Under the pieces are notes generated by a model. It was not told where the DNA came from, made no database searches, and saw only the letters and a program-made list of their open reading frames with translations. Source: Phycisphaerales bacterium (GTDB lineage Bacteria; Planctomycetota; Phycisphaerae; Phycisphaerales; UBA1924). Taken from it: a stretch of DNA of 64,000 nucleotides. Within the stretch, counting starts at the first letter, position 1, and the number at the start of each line of letters is the position of its first letter. Made by a program: the position numbers and the translations under genes. Below, one piece after another: positions 11,572-18,251 of this stretch. The stretch lies in the NCBI GenBank assembly GCA_016742075.1, contig JACVCL010000001.1, positions 186,001 to 250,000 on the forward strand, read 5' to 3'.

Positions 11572-12504
11572 TCATCGCTTCGCCACGGCCCGCCGCGCCG
11601 TAGTCCCCGTCTCGGCCGGCTCCGCCGCGGCCAGCACGCGGTTCACCGCCGGATGCATCGCCCGCCGTCGGACCGTGATGGCGTAATAGGTCTCCCGCAC
11701 GCCCTTGATCCAGCCGACCCGCTCAACGCGGAACTGGGCCTTGACCTCATCCTCGATCAGCGCCGCCGCCGGGAACGCCCCAAGACCACCCCCACCGAAC
11801 GACTTCAGAAGCTCCCGATCCTCAAACTCACCAAGAATCCTCGGCTCGATTTTCAAACTCTCGAACCATCGGTCCATCGACTCGCGAAGCGTGGTCCCGC
11901 TGACGGGCAGATACATCGGCGCACCGTGCAGCGACTGCGGGAACCCTCTCCGCAACTGGCCCGCCAACGCACGGGTGGCGTACACCGCCAGCGGCGTCTC
12001 CATGATCGGATGGCTGACCGCGCGGACATTCGAGGTGTCCGGGTGCGGCCGCTCGGCGATGACCAGGTCGAGCTGGAAAATCGCCAACTCCGCGAGCAGC
12101 GCGTCGATCCGCCACTCGCGGCACACCAGCCGCAGCTCCGGATCCGCCTTCAGCAGCGGCTCGAGAATCCTTCGGATGATCGGTTTGGGCACAAAGTCCG
12201 ACGTTCCGACGTGGAGCGGCCGCGGCCGGCGGCTCTGCCGGCCGCCCAGAGCATCCGGGATCTCCGACGAGATCTGGAACATCTCGTCGGCGTGCCGGAA
12301 CACGATCATCCCGGCCTCGGTCAGCTCGATGGCCCGGCCGCTCCGGATCAGCAGCGTGGTCTTGAGCTGGCCCTCCAGCGAACGGATCTGGGCGCTCACC
12401 GTCGGCTGAGACAGCCCGAGTTCTCGGGCGGCCCGCGACAGGTTGCGGTGCTTGGCCGCCAACCAGAAGTAGTACAGATGATTGTGGTTCAGCGAGGCGG
12501 ACAT
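11572..12504 (-). CDS. NhaR-like LysR-family transcriptional regulator
   Basis: 310-aa LysR regulator. The N-terminal winged helix starts NHNHLYYFWLAAKHRNLSRAA and LSQPTVSAQIRSLE; the NHLYYFW opening is characteristic of the NhaR subgroup, which senses Na+/pH in enterobacteria and activates nhaA and osmC. The rest is the periplasmic-binding-like effector domain. The start at 12504 was chosen because homology begins at SLNHNHLYYFW; a -10-like TACACT lies 5 nt upstream. It is divergent from the trehalose genes, with an osmC/ohr gene 5 kb away, consistent with ionic or osmotic stress control. NhaR identity is by similarity only. Confidence 0.85.
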   Translation of the reverse strand: MSASLNHNHLYYFWLAAKHRNLSRAARELGLSQPTVSAQIRSLEGQLKTTLLIRSGRAIELTEAGMIVFRHADEMFQISSEIPDALGGRQSRRPRPLHVGTSDFVPKPIIRRILEPLLKADPELRLVCREWRIDALLAELAIFQLDLVIAERPHPDTSNVRAVSHPIMETPLAVYATRALAGQLRRGFPQSLHGAPMYLPVSGTTLRESMDRWFESLKIEPRILGEFEDRELLKSFGGGGLGAFPAAALIEDEVKAQFRVERVGWIKGVRETYYAITVRRRAMHPAVNRVLAAAEPAETGTTARRAVAKR

Positions 12505-12509
12505 GGCCC

Positions 12510-12515
12510 AGTGTA
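12510..12515 (-). promoter_or_regulatory. -10-like hexamer TACACT before the LysR gene
   Basis: Minus-strand TACACT ends 5 nt before the ATG at 12504, with no SD between. Confidence 0.4.
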
Positions 12516-12538
12516 GATCGGGTGGGTTCGCCAATTCT

Positions 12539-12553
12539 CTTGGCTCAGCCAAG
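12539..12553. promoter_or_regulatory. Palindrome CTTGGCT-C-AGCCAAG, candidate LysR box
   Basis: Perfect 7-bp inverted repeat with a 1-nt centre, about 35 bp upstream of the LysR start in the divergent region. LysR regulators usually bind interrupted palindromes near their own promoters, so autoregulation is plausible. Confidence 0.4.
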
Positions 12554-12692
12554 GCCTGGCCTATTGGTCGCAACTCGCAAACCGGGCTAGAACCCGCGGT
12601 GAAGTTTCGGGCTGGCCGCTCCGGCCCCGGGCTTCACGCAGGAACCGCGCCCGACGCGCCGGCCGTCCTCAAGGGCCCGGCGGTCGCGAGCC

Positions 12693-12850: not shown

Positions 12851-15382
12851 ATGCAGCCCGACCTGAAGGCTTCGCTCGGGATCCTCTGCAGGACCCCCCT
12901 GCTCTTGGTGGCCTGCGACTACGACGGCACCCTCGCCGGATTCGCCCTCGATCCCGCCTCCGCCCAACCCGACGAACGCGCGATGCACGCGCTCCGCCGC
13001 ATCGACGCTCTCCCGGGCACCACCGCGGCGATCGTCTCCGGACGGTCGGTGCACGCGCTGCGATCGCTGCTCGGATCCGCCCCGCCGGCAACCGTGGTCG
13101 GATCCCACGGCGCCGAGTGGAAAGAGCCGGGGGCGAAGTTGACCGCTGACCAGCGTCGGCTGCTGGAAGACCTGGCCGGCACTGTCCGCGAAATCGCCGG
13201 AGGTGTCCCCGGGATTCGGCTGGAACTGAAACCGGCGGGCGTCGCGCTGCATGTCCGCGGCGCCGCGCCGCAGGCCGCCGCCGACGCGATCGCCTCGGCC
13301 GTGCATCGCTGCGGCTCGCTCGACGGCGTCCACACCCGGCACGGCAGCCAGGTGGTGGAGTTCATGGTCCTCAACACCAACAAGGGCCGGGCCGTCCACC
13401 AGCTCCGTCACGCCACCGCCGCCACGGGCGTTCTCTTCATCGGCGACGATCTGACCGACGAAGACGCCTTCCGGGTGCTCTCGGGCGACGATGTGGCCGT
13501 CAAAGTCGGCCGGGGGGACACCGCCGCCCGCTTCCGAGTCGGGGACATCTCCCAGGTCGCCGACCTGCTCGGCTTCGTCGCCGACCGGCGCGCCGACTGG
13601 GCCGGCGCCACCGACGCCGTGCGCCTCGATCGCTGCGCTGTTCTCTCGGATCAGCGGACGGCCGCCGTCGTCTCGCCGGGCGCCGATATCACCTGGCTCT
13701 GCCTGCCGCGCCTCGATTCGTCGGCAATCTTCGCCGGGCTCTTGGGCGATCGCACCGCCGGCCACTTTTCGATCTCCCCGGTGCACCTCGCCCCACCCTC
13801 CCGCACGCAGTACGCCGGCGATTCTCTCGTGCTCGTGACCGAGTGGCCCGGCCTCCGCGTCACCGACTACCTCGACTGCTCCGCCGGCCGCCCCTTTCAC
13901 AAGGCAGGACGCACCGACCTCATCCGCGTGGTCGAGGCCGCCGCCCCCGCCCACGTGCGCTTTGCGCCCAGGCTCGACTACGGCCGGATCGCCACCCAAC
14001 TCCGCCTCCGCGACGGCGGGATCGAGGTTCAGGGCTCCAACGACCCCATCACCCTTCGCTCCGCCGGCGTGCGGTGGACCATCACCCGCGAGGGGGTCCA
14101 CGACACCGCCGAAGCCGTCATCGAACCCGGCGGGGCCCCGGTCGTCTTCGAACTGCGCTACGGCTCGGCCAGCCTGACCGACGCCTCCGCCACCGAGCAA
14201 GCCCGAAGGGACCAGACCCTCCGATTCTGGGCCGGCTGGGCGCGGTCGCTCACACTGCCCTCCCGAGCGCCCGATATGGTGCGGCGGTCCGCCCTCGTGC
14301 TCAAGTCGTTGTTCTACGGTCCCACCGGCGCACCCGCCGCCGCCGCGACCACGAGCCTTCCTGAACAGCTCGGCGGGGTCAGGAACTGGGACTACCGATA
14401 CTGCTGGCCGCGCGACGCCGCGATGACCGCCGCCTCGCTCGTCCGCCTGGGCAACACCGGCCACGCCATGAAGTTCCTCGACTGGGTGCTGGAGGTGGTC
14501 GACCGCTGCGAGTCCCCCGAGCGCCTGCACCCCATCTACACCGTCTCCGGCGCCCATCTGCCCCCCGAGGCCGAGCTCGGGCACCTCGGGGGGTTCGCGC
14601 ACAGCCGCCCGGTGCGAATCGGCAACGCCGCCGCCAACCAGGTTCAGCTCGATGTCTTCGGTCCGATCGTGAACCTCGTGGCGATGCTCGCCGAACGCGG
14701 AGCGCCCATCGCCCCCGACCACTGGCGGCTCGTCCGGGCCATGGTCCGGGCTGTCGAGGCACGCTGGACCGAGCCGGATCACGGCATCTGGGAGATGCGT
14801 CTGGAGCGCCGCCACCACGTCCACTCCAAGGTCATGTGCTGGCACACCGTCGATCGAGCGATCGTGGTCGAGCAGGCCGTCGCCGGAACTCGCGACGCAT
14901 CCTGGCTCGCGCTGAGAGACGCCATCCGTGACGATGTCCTGACCAACGGCTGGAACGCGGGTGTCGGGTCATTCACCGGCGCCTTCGGCCACGACTACGC
15001 CGACGCCGCGGTGCTCAAGCTCGGCACCACCGGGCTGATCGAGCCCGGCGACCCACGCTGGGCCGCAACCGTCGACCGGATCATCCGCGACCTCGCCGAC
15101 GGCCCGACCGTGCGCCGGTATCTGGCCGACGACGGGCTCCCCGGCACCGAGGGAGGGATGCACATCTGCACCGCATGGCTCATCGAAGCGCTGATCACCC
15201 TCGGCCGCATCGGCGAGGCCGATGCCCTGTTCCGCCGGTTCACGGGGCTCGTCGCCGATCCCGGCATCCTCACCGAGCAGTTCGACCCGCGGCACGGGAC
15301 CGCCCTCGGCAACCTCGCCCAGGCCTACTCCCACCTCGCCCTCATCGACGCGGCCGTCGCGCTCGATCGGGCCGGCGCTTAG
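12851..15382 (+). CDS. Bifunctional trehalose-6-phosphate phosphatase (OtsB)-GH15 glycoside hydrolase fusion
   Basis: 843-aa fusion. Residues ~1-245 are a HAD phosphatase of the OtsB type: nucleophile motif DYDGTL (Asp23), VGSHGAEW, and GDDLTDEDAF; it converts trehalose-6-phosphate to trehalose. Residues ~260-840 are a GH15 glucoamylase/trehalase-type (alpha/alpha)6 barrel: SDQRTAAVVSPGADITWLCLPR, GGVRNWDYRYCWPRDAAM, general acid in DHGIWEMR, general base in LTEQFDP, and ALGNLAQAYSHLALI. A good Shine-Dalgarno (CAGGAGG) precedes ATG 12851; the track's earlier start runs through the non-coding upstream region. Followed after 19 nt by otsA. Whether the GH15 half cleaves trehalose or another alpha-glucan is unknown. 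Confidence 0.9.
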   Translation: MQPDLKASLGILCRTPLLLVACDYDGTLAGFALDPASAQPDERAMHALRRIDALPGTTAAIVSGRSVHALRSLLGSAPPATVVGSHGAEWKEPGAKLTADQRRLLEDLAGTVREIAGGVPGIRLELKPAGVALHVRGAAPQAAADAIASAVHRCGSLDGVHTRHGSQVVEFMVLNTNKGRAVHQLRHATAATGVLFIGDDLTDEDAFRVLSGDDVAVKVGRGDTAARFRVGDISQVADLLGFVADRRADWAGATDAVRLDRCAVLSDQRTAAVVSPGADITWLCLPRLDSSAIFAGLLGDRTAGHFSISPVHLAPPSRTQYAGDSLVLVTEWPGLRVTDYLDCSAGRPFHKAGRTDLIRVVEAAAPAHVRFAPRLDYGRIATQLRLRDGGIEVQGSNDPITLRSAGVRWTITREGVHDTAEAVIEPGGAPVVFELRYGSASLTDASATEQARRDQTLRFWAGWARSLTLPSRAPDMVRRSALVLKSLFYGPTGAPAAAATTSLPEQLGGVRNWDYRYCWPRDAAMTAASLVRLGNTGHAMKFLDWVLEVVDRCESPERLHPIYTVSGAHLPPEAELGHLGGFAHSRPVRIGNAAANQVQLDVFGPIVNLVAMLAERGAPIAPDHWRLVRAMVRAVEARWTEPDHGIWEMRLERRHHVHSKVMCWHTVDRAIVVEQAVAGTRDASWLALRDAIRDDVLTNGWNAGVGSFTGAFGHDYADAAVLKLGTTGLIEPGDPRWAATVDRIIRDLADGPTVRRYLADDGLPGTEGGMHICTAWLIEALITLGRIGEADALFRRFTGLVADPGILTEQFDPRHGTALGNLAQAYSHLALIDAAVALDRAGA

Positions 15383-15401: not shown

Positions 15402-17759
15402 ATGGCCGCGACCTCGCACACACTCTCGTCCAAGTCGATCCGCTTCGGGCTGCTCATCGCGGTGCTCGCCGCCGCCGCGACCGGGGCGATCTTCTGGTTT
15501 CAGATCTCCGCCGAGCAGCAGCAGGGCCTCGAGGACCTCACCAGAAGGGCCCAACTCCTCGGGCACCGCGTGACCCCCACCGCCCGACGGGCGTTCGACG
15601 CCGATGAATCGCGCGTCCCGACCGTCGTCGGCGACCGGCTGGAAGGCCACCTCCGGCTGCTGGGGATGTCCCTGCACCGCGCCGACGGGACGATGATCGC
15701 CTGCGGTCAGGGCCTGACAGACCTCGCCGCCGCGGTCGCTCCGGCGGCCAGGCAGGCCGTCGACACCGGCGCCGACGCGAGCACCCTGCACCGCGACGGC
15801 GGCGGCAGCACGCACATGCTCGTCCAGCCGGTCCGCGACGACACGGGCGCCGCCATCGGCGCCGTGGCGGTGTTCCACGACGCGCTGTACCTCGAAGACC
15901 GCACCACCCGCGGCATCCTCCGCGGCATGCTCTGGTCCGGTGGGGTCGGGCTGGCCATGTTCCTCGTGGCCACAGTCCTTTCATGGGCGATCTTCGAGCG
16001 GCCGCTCCACAGGCTCGCCGAGTGGATGCGTCGACTCCGCTTCGGCAGCGGGCCCGAGCTTCCGCCGCACGGGCTGCCCGTCGGACGCCTGGCCGATGAA
16101 ACCGCGCACCTGGCCGCGTCCTTCCGCGCCGCCAGGAGCCAGGAACGCGAGGACGCCCAGGCCGTCGTCCGCTCCGAGCGTGCGTGGACCAGAGATCGCC
16201 TCCGCGCCCACGCCATCGATGCCCTCGGCGGAAGACCGCTGGTCGTCGTCAGCAACCGTGAACCGTACATGCACCAGCTCCGGGAAGGCCGGCCGGCCCT
16301 GGTGCGGCCCGCCAGCGGCCTGGTCACCGGCCTCGATCCCGTGCTGCGCGCCACCGGCGGCATCTGGGTCGCCCACGGCGCCGGCGACGCCGACCGCCAG
16401 ACCGCCGACGCCGCCGGGTGCATCCCCGTGCCGCCGGAAGACTCACGCTACACCCTCAAGCGCGTCTGGATCAGCAGGGAAGAGGAGCAGGGCTACTACT
16501 ACGGCTTCTCCAACGAGGGGCTCTGGCCCCTGTGCCACCTCACGCACGAGCGCCCGGTCTTCCGGTCCGGCGACTGGGCGCAGTACGTCCGCGCCAACCA
16601 GCGCTTCGCCGACGCCGTGCTCGACGAAGTCGGCGACGAGCACGCCGTCGTGATGGTCCAGGACTATCAGCTCGCCCTCGTGCCCGGCATGCTCAAGGCC
16701 CGGCACCCCGGCATGCGCGTCGGCCTGTTCTGGCACATCCCCTGGCCCAACGCCGAAGCCTTCCGCATCTGCCCCTACCGGGCCGAACTGCTGCACGGCA
16801 TGCTCGGCGCCGACCTGGTCGGCTTCCACCTCCAGCAGCACTGCAACAACTTCCTCGACTCCGTCGACCGCATGGTCGAAGCCAGGCTCGACTGGGACCG
16901 ATTCTCCGCCGAGCTCAAGGGCCACACCGCCCTCGTCCGACCCTTCCCCATCAGCGTCCAGCCGTGGTCCGAGCGCTCGGTCGCCTCGGGCGACGCCCTC
17001 GGCCGGCAGATCACGACCCTCCGCGAGCAGCACCAGCTCGGCCCGTGCGAGATCGGGGTCGGCGTCGACCGCATCGACTACACCAAGGGCATCGCCGAGC
17101 GGTTCCGCGCCATCGACCGTCTCTTCGAAGCCCACCCCGAGCACATCGGACGCTTCTCGTTCGTCCAGCTCGGCGCACCCAGCCGGGTCCACATCCCGCG
17201 GTACCGCGACCTGATCACCGAGCTCGAAACCCTCGCCGACGAGATCAACTGGAAGCACCGCGACGCCTCCGCCCCGGGCTGGAAGCCGATCCACTTCCTC
17301 GTGGCCCACCACGAAGGCCCCGCCGTGTACGCCTTCCTCAGGATGGCGCGGGTCTGCGTCGTCAGCTCGCTGCACGACGGGATGAACCTCGTCGCCAAGG
17401 AGTTCATCGCGGCCAAGGCCGAGGCGGGCGACACCGACAGCGACGAGCACGAAGGTGTCCTCGTGCTCTCCGAGTTCGCCGGCGCCGCCCGCGACCTGCC
17501 CGAGGCGCTCATCATCAACCCCTACGACACCGAGCAGTTCGCCTCGGTGATCCACGACGCCCTCGTCATGGAACCCCGCGAGCGCCGGCAACGCATGACC
17601 CGCATGCGCCTCCGCGTCGAGGAATTCAACATCTACCGCTGGGCCGCCGACTTCCTCACCTCGCTCGCCCAGGCCAGCGGAAACCCCGCCGACGCCGCCG
17701 ACTCCCGCTCCGGAGCAGCCCCGGTGTCTCCCGCCCCCGGCTCCGGCCGCACGTCCTAG
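15402..17759 (+). CDS. otsA: Membrane-anchored trehalose-6-phosphate synthase (OtsA, GT20) with N-terminal sensor-like region
   Basis: 785-aa protein. The N-terminus has a transmembrane helix (FGLLIAVLAAAATGAIFWF), a ~145-residue extracytoplasmic stretch resembling a sensor domain, a second helix (GLAMFLVATVLSWAIF) and a HAMP-like linker. Residues ~285-760 are a GT20 trehalose-6-phosphate synthase using UDP/GDP-glucose and glucose-6-phosphate: VVVSNREPY, VQDYQLALVPGML, LFWHIPWPNAE, GVDRIDYTKGI, and SSLHDGMNLVAKEF. OtsA enzymes are normally soluble and ~450-500 aa, so the membrane sensor front half is unusual. The ATG at 15402 has a GGAG upstream. It pairs with the OtsB half of the preceding gene. 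Confidence 0.92.
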   Translation: MAATSHTLSSKSIRFGLLIAVLAAAATGAIFWFQISAEQQQGLEDLTRRAQLLGHRVTPTARRAFDADESRVPTVVGDRLEGHLRLLGMSLHRADGTMIACGQGLTDLAAAVAPAARQAVDTGADASTLHRDGGGSTHMLVQPVRDDTGAAIGAVAVFHDALYLEDRTTRGILRGMLWSGGVGLAMFLVATVLSWAIFERPLHRLAEWMRRLRFGSGPELPPHGLPVGRLADETAHLAASFRAARSQEREDAQAVVRSERAWTRDRLRAHAIDALGGRPLVVVSNREPYMHQLREGRPALVRPASGLVTGLDPVLRATGGIWVAHGAGDADRQTADAAGCIPVPPEDSRYTLKRVWISREEEQGYYYGFSNEGLWPLCHLTHERPVFRSGDWAQYVRANQRFADAVLDEVGDEHAVVMVQDYQLALVPGMLKARHPGMRVGLFWHIPWPNAEAFRICPYRAELLHGMLGADLVGFHLQQHCNNFLDSVDRMVEARLDWDRFSAELKGHTALVRPFPISVQPWSERSVASGDALGRQITTLREQHQLGPCEIGVGVDRIDYTKGIAERFRAIDRLFEAHPEHIGRFSFVQLGAPSRVHIPRYRDLITELETLADEINWKHRDASAPGWKPIHFLVAHHEGPAVYAFLRMARVCVVSSLHDGMNLVAKEFIAAKAEAGDTDSDEHEGVLVLSEFAGAARDLPEALIINPYDTEQFASVIHDALVMEPRERRQRMTRMRLRVEEFNIYRWAADFLTSLAQASGNPADAADSRSGAAPVSPAPGSGRTS

Positions 17760-17828: not shown

Positions 17829-18251
<423 letters not shown>

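Follow-up and report, generated by a model that had tools for sequence, protein, structure and literature searches.

The window analysed here, a 64,000-nucleotide stretch of a Phycisphaerales genome, encodes a 785-aa protein of the trehalose-6-phosphate synthase (TPS) type in which the catalytic GT20 domain is preceded by a front half homologous to sensor modules, made up of a transmembrane helix (TM1), a single Cache domain, a second transmembrane helix (TM2), a HAMP domain of divergent sequence and a helical linker. Drawing on this architecture, the homology of the front half, the spacing of its elements, the intact active site and the operon context, we consider the protein to be probably a one-component receptor enzyme, in which a signal at the Cache domain or the membrane changes GT20 activity through the HAMP domain and a rigid helix.

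Domain layout and identity of the front half

The ORF opens with ATG, with GGAG just 5' of the start, and is separated by 19 bases from the stop of the upstream gene; the frame exactly opposite 15402-17759 is interrupted by stops. A translation start further downstream, at the GT20 domain, was ruled out because 66 orthologues, drawn from many phyla, conserve the N-terminal start. The gene is laid out as follows:

15402..17759, plus strand: Cache-HAMP-GT20 trehalose-6-phosphate synthase, 785 aa (ORF, Pfam, AlphaFold, 66-member family alignment)
15441..15509, plus strand: TM helix 1, about residues 14-36, K/R-rich N-tail inside (hydropathy; model helix 12-66)
15510..15881, plus strand: extracytoplasmic single Cache (PAS-like) sensor domain, about residues 37-160 (orthologue Pfam, model topology, Foldseek)
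15915..15992, plus strand: TM helix 2, about residues 172-197 (hydropathy; continuous model helix 162-214)
15993..16142, plus strand: HAMP domain, residues 198-247 (Pfam 19.2 bits with the N-terminal part alone, spaced hydrophobics, connector length variation)
16143..16238, plus strand: linker resembling a signalling helix, with the W262-T263 junction to the enzyme (E233-R286 spacing; W-x-x-x-x-L motif in soluble clade members)
16239..17669, plus strand: GT20 catalytic domain, residues 280-756 (Pfam 2.9e-112, 376 bits, cut-off 32.5; active-site residues; Foldseek)

The initial annotation had proposed two TM helices around an extracytoplasmic domain, with a sensor-like front half and a HAMP-like linker ahead of GT20. 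Hydropathy bears out the first of these points: hydrophobic segments fall at about residues 15-33 and 172-190, and each full-length orthologue examined has two such segments about 160 aa apart before GT20, in agreement with the model and with the Foldseek matches described below. K/R outnumber D/E in the N-tail of all 66 orthologues, consistent with an N-in, C-in topology.

Pfam was run on the N-terminal parts of the 66 orthologues, where at E<=0.05 it recovered dCache_1 in 17, sCache_3_2 in 16 and HAMP in 13, the best Cache match reaching 2.7e-06. The window protein itself matches no Pfam Cache family, and its HAMP match lies below the cut-off (17.2 to 19.2 bits vs 25, the lower value being at residues 200-247). 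AlphaFold modelled the protein confidently (pLDDT 88.7 for the whole chain, 87.7 when the front half was taken alone), with a topology of a long helix, a PAS-like sheet, and TM2 continuing into the first HAMP helix (AS1), a connector and the second helix (AS2). The predicted extracytoplasmic PAS-like fold thus sits between two TM helices with a long helix before it, the arrangement expected of a Cache domain. Among the matches listed, a Foldseek search of the PDB with the full-length model gave GT20 only, so a separate model of the front half was made and used as query. Its top fold match was WalK, an integrative model entry, aligned across TM-Cache-TM-HAMP (TMq 0.68, 283 columns), and further matches were the solved sensor domains of WalK, CitA, KinD and DcuS.

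A profile of the front half only, searched against 294 Planctomycetota genomes, retrieved sensor histidine kinases and a SpoIIE phosphatase, with HAMP above cut-off, together with further GT20 fusions; eight of ten matches scanned were Cache/HAMP signalling proteins and two were GT20 fusions. That the profile pulls in HAMP-containing kinases and a phosphatase rules out a chance pseudo-HAMP. The features of a HAMP domain are present, as two helices with a connector (residues 215-227) between them: AS1 carries the proline P201 (62 of 66 orthologues) and the invariant W208, AS2 carries the glutamate E233 (66 of 66), and hydrophobic residues occupy positions 198, 202, 205, 209 and 212 of the first helix and 230, 237, 241 and 244 of the second. 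The connector is longer than in canonical HAMP domains, which, like the sub-threshold Pfam score, counts against the receptor reading. Orthologue Pfam matches, AlphaFold, Foldseek and the front-half profile therefore contradict the notion that residues 1-280 are unrelated to sensor or HAMP folds. The HAMP-like linker stands, albeit as a divergent HAMP (orthologue Pfam, model, front-half profile), and the sensor-like region can be named as a single Cache domain (orthologue Pfam, models, Foldseek).

Proposed coupling of the membrane module to the enzyme

Spacing along the front half is close to fixed. G153 and P201 are 48 residues apart, and P201 and W208 seven, in 66/66 orthologues, while E233 and R286 are separated by 53 residues in 50 of the 66 and by a distance within two of this in the rest. 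Length varies widely in the HAMP connector (W208-E233, 22-30 residues). Residues G88, G153, W208 and E233 are invariant, and the HAMP helices and the linker/junction are more conserved than the TM helices or the Cache domain. Near-fixed helix spacing, with most of the length variation falling in the connector, is more in keeping with signal transmission than with a passive anchor; as read from the alignment, it would suit a transmitting module more than a loose tether, short of proof of regulation.

We postulate that the N-tail is cytoplasmic and the single Cache domain periplasmic, with TM2 running into HAMP and then into a fixed-length helix that would end on the synthase N-terminus. A signal at the Cache domain or the membrane would most likely alter HAMP packing in a dimer, and the altered packing would act through the rigid helix to change the activity of the catalytic domain, such that trehalose synthesis would follow an extracytoplasmic stress signal directly. 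We infer dimeric signalling and a change in activity, and favour osmotic or ionic stress as the signal.

The front half could instead be a mere inner-membrane anchor for synthesis, its Cache-HAMP portion a relic of the source sensor. Clade members from Aminobacter and other Pseudomonadota lack both Cache and HAMP and carry, at the same junction, a lone TM helix with a short linker, so membrane placement by itself may be useful. In a simple anchor, however, one would expect the length to drift and domains to be lost, whereas Cache, HAMP and linker are kept across phyla in the 66 orthologues, with the near-fixed spacing and the four invariant residues given above, and we regard this explanation as unlikely.

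The W262-T263 junction was considered as a special coupling motif and dropped. Soluble clade members begin with a similar W-x-x-x-x-L right at the N-terminus, the GT20 fold starting only a few residues later, and W262-T263 therefore marks the fusion point, at which the Cache-HAMP module is attached. The single-TM tethered synthases of Pseudomonadota were found at loci L181-L185 and L027. Within one Nitrospirota order, five genomes (L149, L164-L167) have an MscS-type module at the same GT20 junction; four of these five fusions are 80-82% identical to L149, and three are on megabase contigs. The MscS-GT20 loci from these five genomes are L149 (1284-3449, minus strand), L164-L167 and L191, and no OtsB was detected in the stretches covered for L149 and L191, a further point against the receptor reading. 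In a quick tree from which the MscS fusions were left out, the sampled fused members group together, and the Aminobacter protein falls within their cluster. To judge from these sequences, different membrane inputs are joined to related enzymes at one and the same point, and the MscS cousins suggest that membrane or osmotic inputs were recruited to the enzyme more than once.

Further candidates were recorded alongside these. Nitrospirota matches beginning at about model position 257 were rejected as extra sensor fusions, as those fetched proved to be TPS-OtsB bifunctional or soluble proteins, except for one MscS fusion. Divergent two-TM front halves precede GT20 at L178-L180, L192 and L193, from Pseudomonadota and Planctomycetota, and the three scanned (L178, L192, L193) match no Pfam sensor family. 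In a Pseudomonadota genome, a GT20 match lies within a 1435-aa open frame (G999:C1:331263-332690, L177).

Catalytic domain, gene neighbourhood and distribution

The active-site residues R9, Y76, W85, D130, H154, R262, K267, R300, D361 and E369 (E. coli OtsA numbering, covering donor and acceptor sites) are identical in the window protein and 65 relatives, and the GT20 domain matches 5l3k and 1gz5 with a TMt of ~0.9 (Foldseek). The NCBIfam OtsA equivalog scores 405 bits, under its cut-off of 564.85, and the glucosylglycerol-phosphate synthase equivalog 254 bits, under its cut-off of 569. Since the OtsA cut-off is missed, we place the enzyme in a separate GT20 branch and do not assign it to OtsA in the strict sense; a quick tree puts it in an 'SNREPY' ('NREPY') branch that lies closer to the enzymes of haloarchaea and Deinococcus. 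In the window genome no GT20 other than the 785-aa protein exceeds the cut-off, and the same holds for the fused gene in seven other host genomes, with the caveat that MAGs may be incomplete. As the sole GT20 in the hosts checked, the fused protein is most likely the enzyme that produces trehalose-6-phosphate there.

Three neighbouring genes bear on its role:

11572..12573, minus strand: divergent NhaR-like LysR regulator (NCBIfam NhaR 186 bits, cut-off 219), listed from TTG with a probable ATG start near 12504
12851..15382, plus strand: OtsB (trehalose-phosphatase) fused to a GH15 trehalase-like domain, upstream of the synthase (start at 12851 inferred from AGGAGG)
17829..18251, plus strand: Ohr-type organic hydroperoxide reductase, downstream (NCBIfam TIGR03561 161 bits, cut-off 88.9)

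With the window OtsB as query, OtsB was detected near the synthase gene in 60 of 80 loci, several of the others being short-flanked. The fusion to GH15, with no in-frame stop, also occurs in six Phycisphaerales relatives checked; in the remaining loci checked, OtsB and GH15 form separate frames or have an intervening stop. From its domains, the fused polypeptide would make, and possibly also degrade, trehalose.

The low equivalog scores leave some room for another GT20 product, e.g. glucosylglycerol-phosphate, under the same receptor control, as both cut-offs are missed. OtsA is nevertheless the better fit of the two, its site residues including R9, Y76, W85 and R300 are conserved, and the adjacent OtsB is above the trehalose-phosphatase cut-off and carries a trehalase-like domain, which together make a different product highly improbable. 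Receptor modules being bidirectional in principle, the GT20 domain might also sense sugar phosphates in the cytoplasm, with the front half reporting outward or to a partner and the enzyme acting as the sensor. Against such reverse signalling stand the intact catalytic residues, the adjacency of OtsB in most loci and the status of the protein as sole GT20 above cut-off, and hence most likely producer, in eight host genomes; no partner gene was seen, and we give this direction of signalling next to no credence.

The downstream gene was rejected as OsmC in favour of Ohr, its TIGR03561 score being above cut-off. A 67% homologue of the NhaR-like regulator is likewise divergent at two other loci (L030 and L033). 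In E. coli, NhaR is a regulator of the response to high salt and high pH and, in addition, an activator of the peroxide-resistance gene osmC (PMC6307784). By this analogy the neighbourhood would favour a role in salt or osmotic stress, without naming the Cache signal. Allosteric control of the synthase by osmotic or envelope signals, as first suggested in the initial annotation, would be consistent with the conserved spacing, the stress-gene neighbourhood and the MscS-GT20 cousins.

When 61 close genomes were searched at the protein level, three proved to encode the full architecture; the other matches were to the GT20 domain only, at ~33-40% identity. An alignment-based contig scan yielded 80 loci that are 41-75% identical, from MAGs labelled Phycisphaerales, Gammaproteobacteria, Acidobacteria, Competibacter, Kuenenia, Nitrospirae, Omnitrophota, Elusimicrobia, Deltaproteobacteria, Zixibacteria and Bacteroidetes/Stygiobacter. 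Counting as full architecture a profile match that begins within the first few profile positions, we found it in 40/198 Nitrospirota, 37/145 Omnitrophota, 5/294 Planctomycetota and 4/399 Pseudomonadota genomes (one of the last four starts at profile position 35), where the Nitrospirota, Omnitrophota and Pseudomonadota sets bear the phylum labels of their centre loci (L062, L073 and L039, respectively). Lineages from Planctomycetota to Omnitrophota share the conserved Cache-HAMP-GT20 architecture. Its presence in so few Planctomycetota genomes implies that trehalose synthesis in that phylum does not depend on it, which also counts against the receptor reading. Whether these proteins constitute an undescribed and widespread class of one-component receptor enzymes, with a Cache-HAMP sensor of osmotic or envelope state (MscS-type in sister lineages) directly gating trehalose synthesis, seems to us an evenly balanced proposition.

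Comparison with known systems

In a survey of Cache domains, these were found exclusively with signalling output domains, SMP_2 excepted (PMC4822843); the window Cache domain is attached to GT20 and departs from the signalling-output families surveyed there. Control of E. coli otsAB is described as acting through RpoS-dependent transcription (PMC5066198). Searches of a library of open literature turned up no description of a TPS with HAMP or Cache, of a membrane-bound OtsA or of an MscS-TPS. Both halves of the window protein are of known kinds, and it is their combination and its breadth that appear undescribed. If our reading is true, Cache-HAMP on a synthase would place a compatible-solute enzyme under direct, post-translational control by a receptor, and a surface signal may switch the production of a stress-protecting sugar with no intermediate kinase or transcription factor.

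With OtsA-type TPS (E. coli OtsA, 1gz5; Mycobacterium TPS, 5l3k) the window enzyme shares the catalytic fold, the checked active-site residues and an adjacent partner phosphatase. OtsA is soluble, however, whereas the window enzyme has a 280-residue receptor module in front and belongs to the 'NREPY' branch. WalK, CitA, DcuS, KinD and the Cache-HAMP SpoIIE phosphatases share its TM1, extracytoplasmic Cache domain and TM2, followed by HAMP and a helical output linker in WalK as well as in the kinases and phosphatase retrieved here; their output is a kinase, phosphatase, cyclase or chemotaxis domain, in contrast to a biosynthetic glycosyltransferase. The tethered TPS of Aminobacter and other Pseudomonadota, the Aminobacter copy being annotated merely as trehalose-6-phosphate synthase, has in common the GT20 clade, the W-junction and membrane attachment, but through a single TM helix and with neither Cache nor HAMP. 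The Nitrospirota MscS-GT20 fusion has a related GT20, the junction and an N-terminal membrane input module, with an MscS-type channel beta-domain where the window protein has Cache-HAMP. The soluble, one-TM, Cache-HAMP and MscS forms of the clade therefore offer natural comparisons, by which the question can be tested on one catalytic domain.
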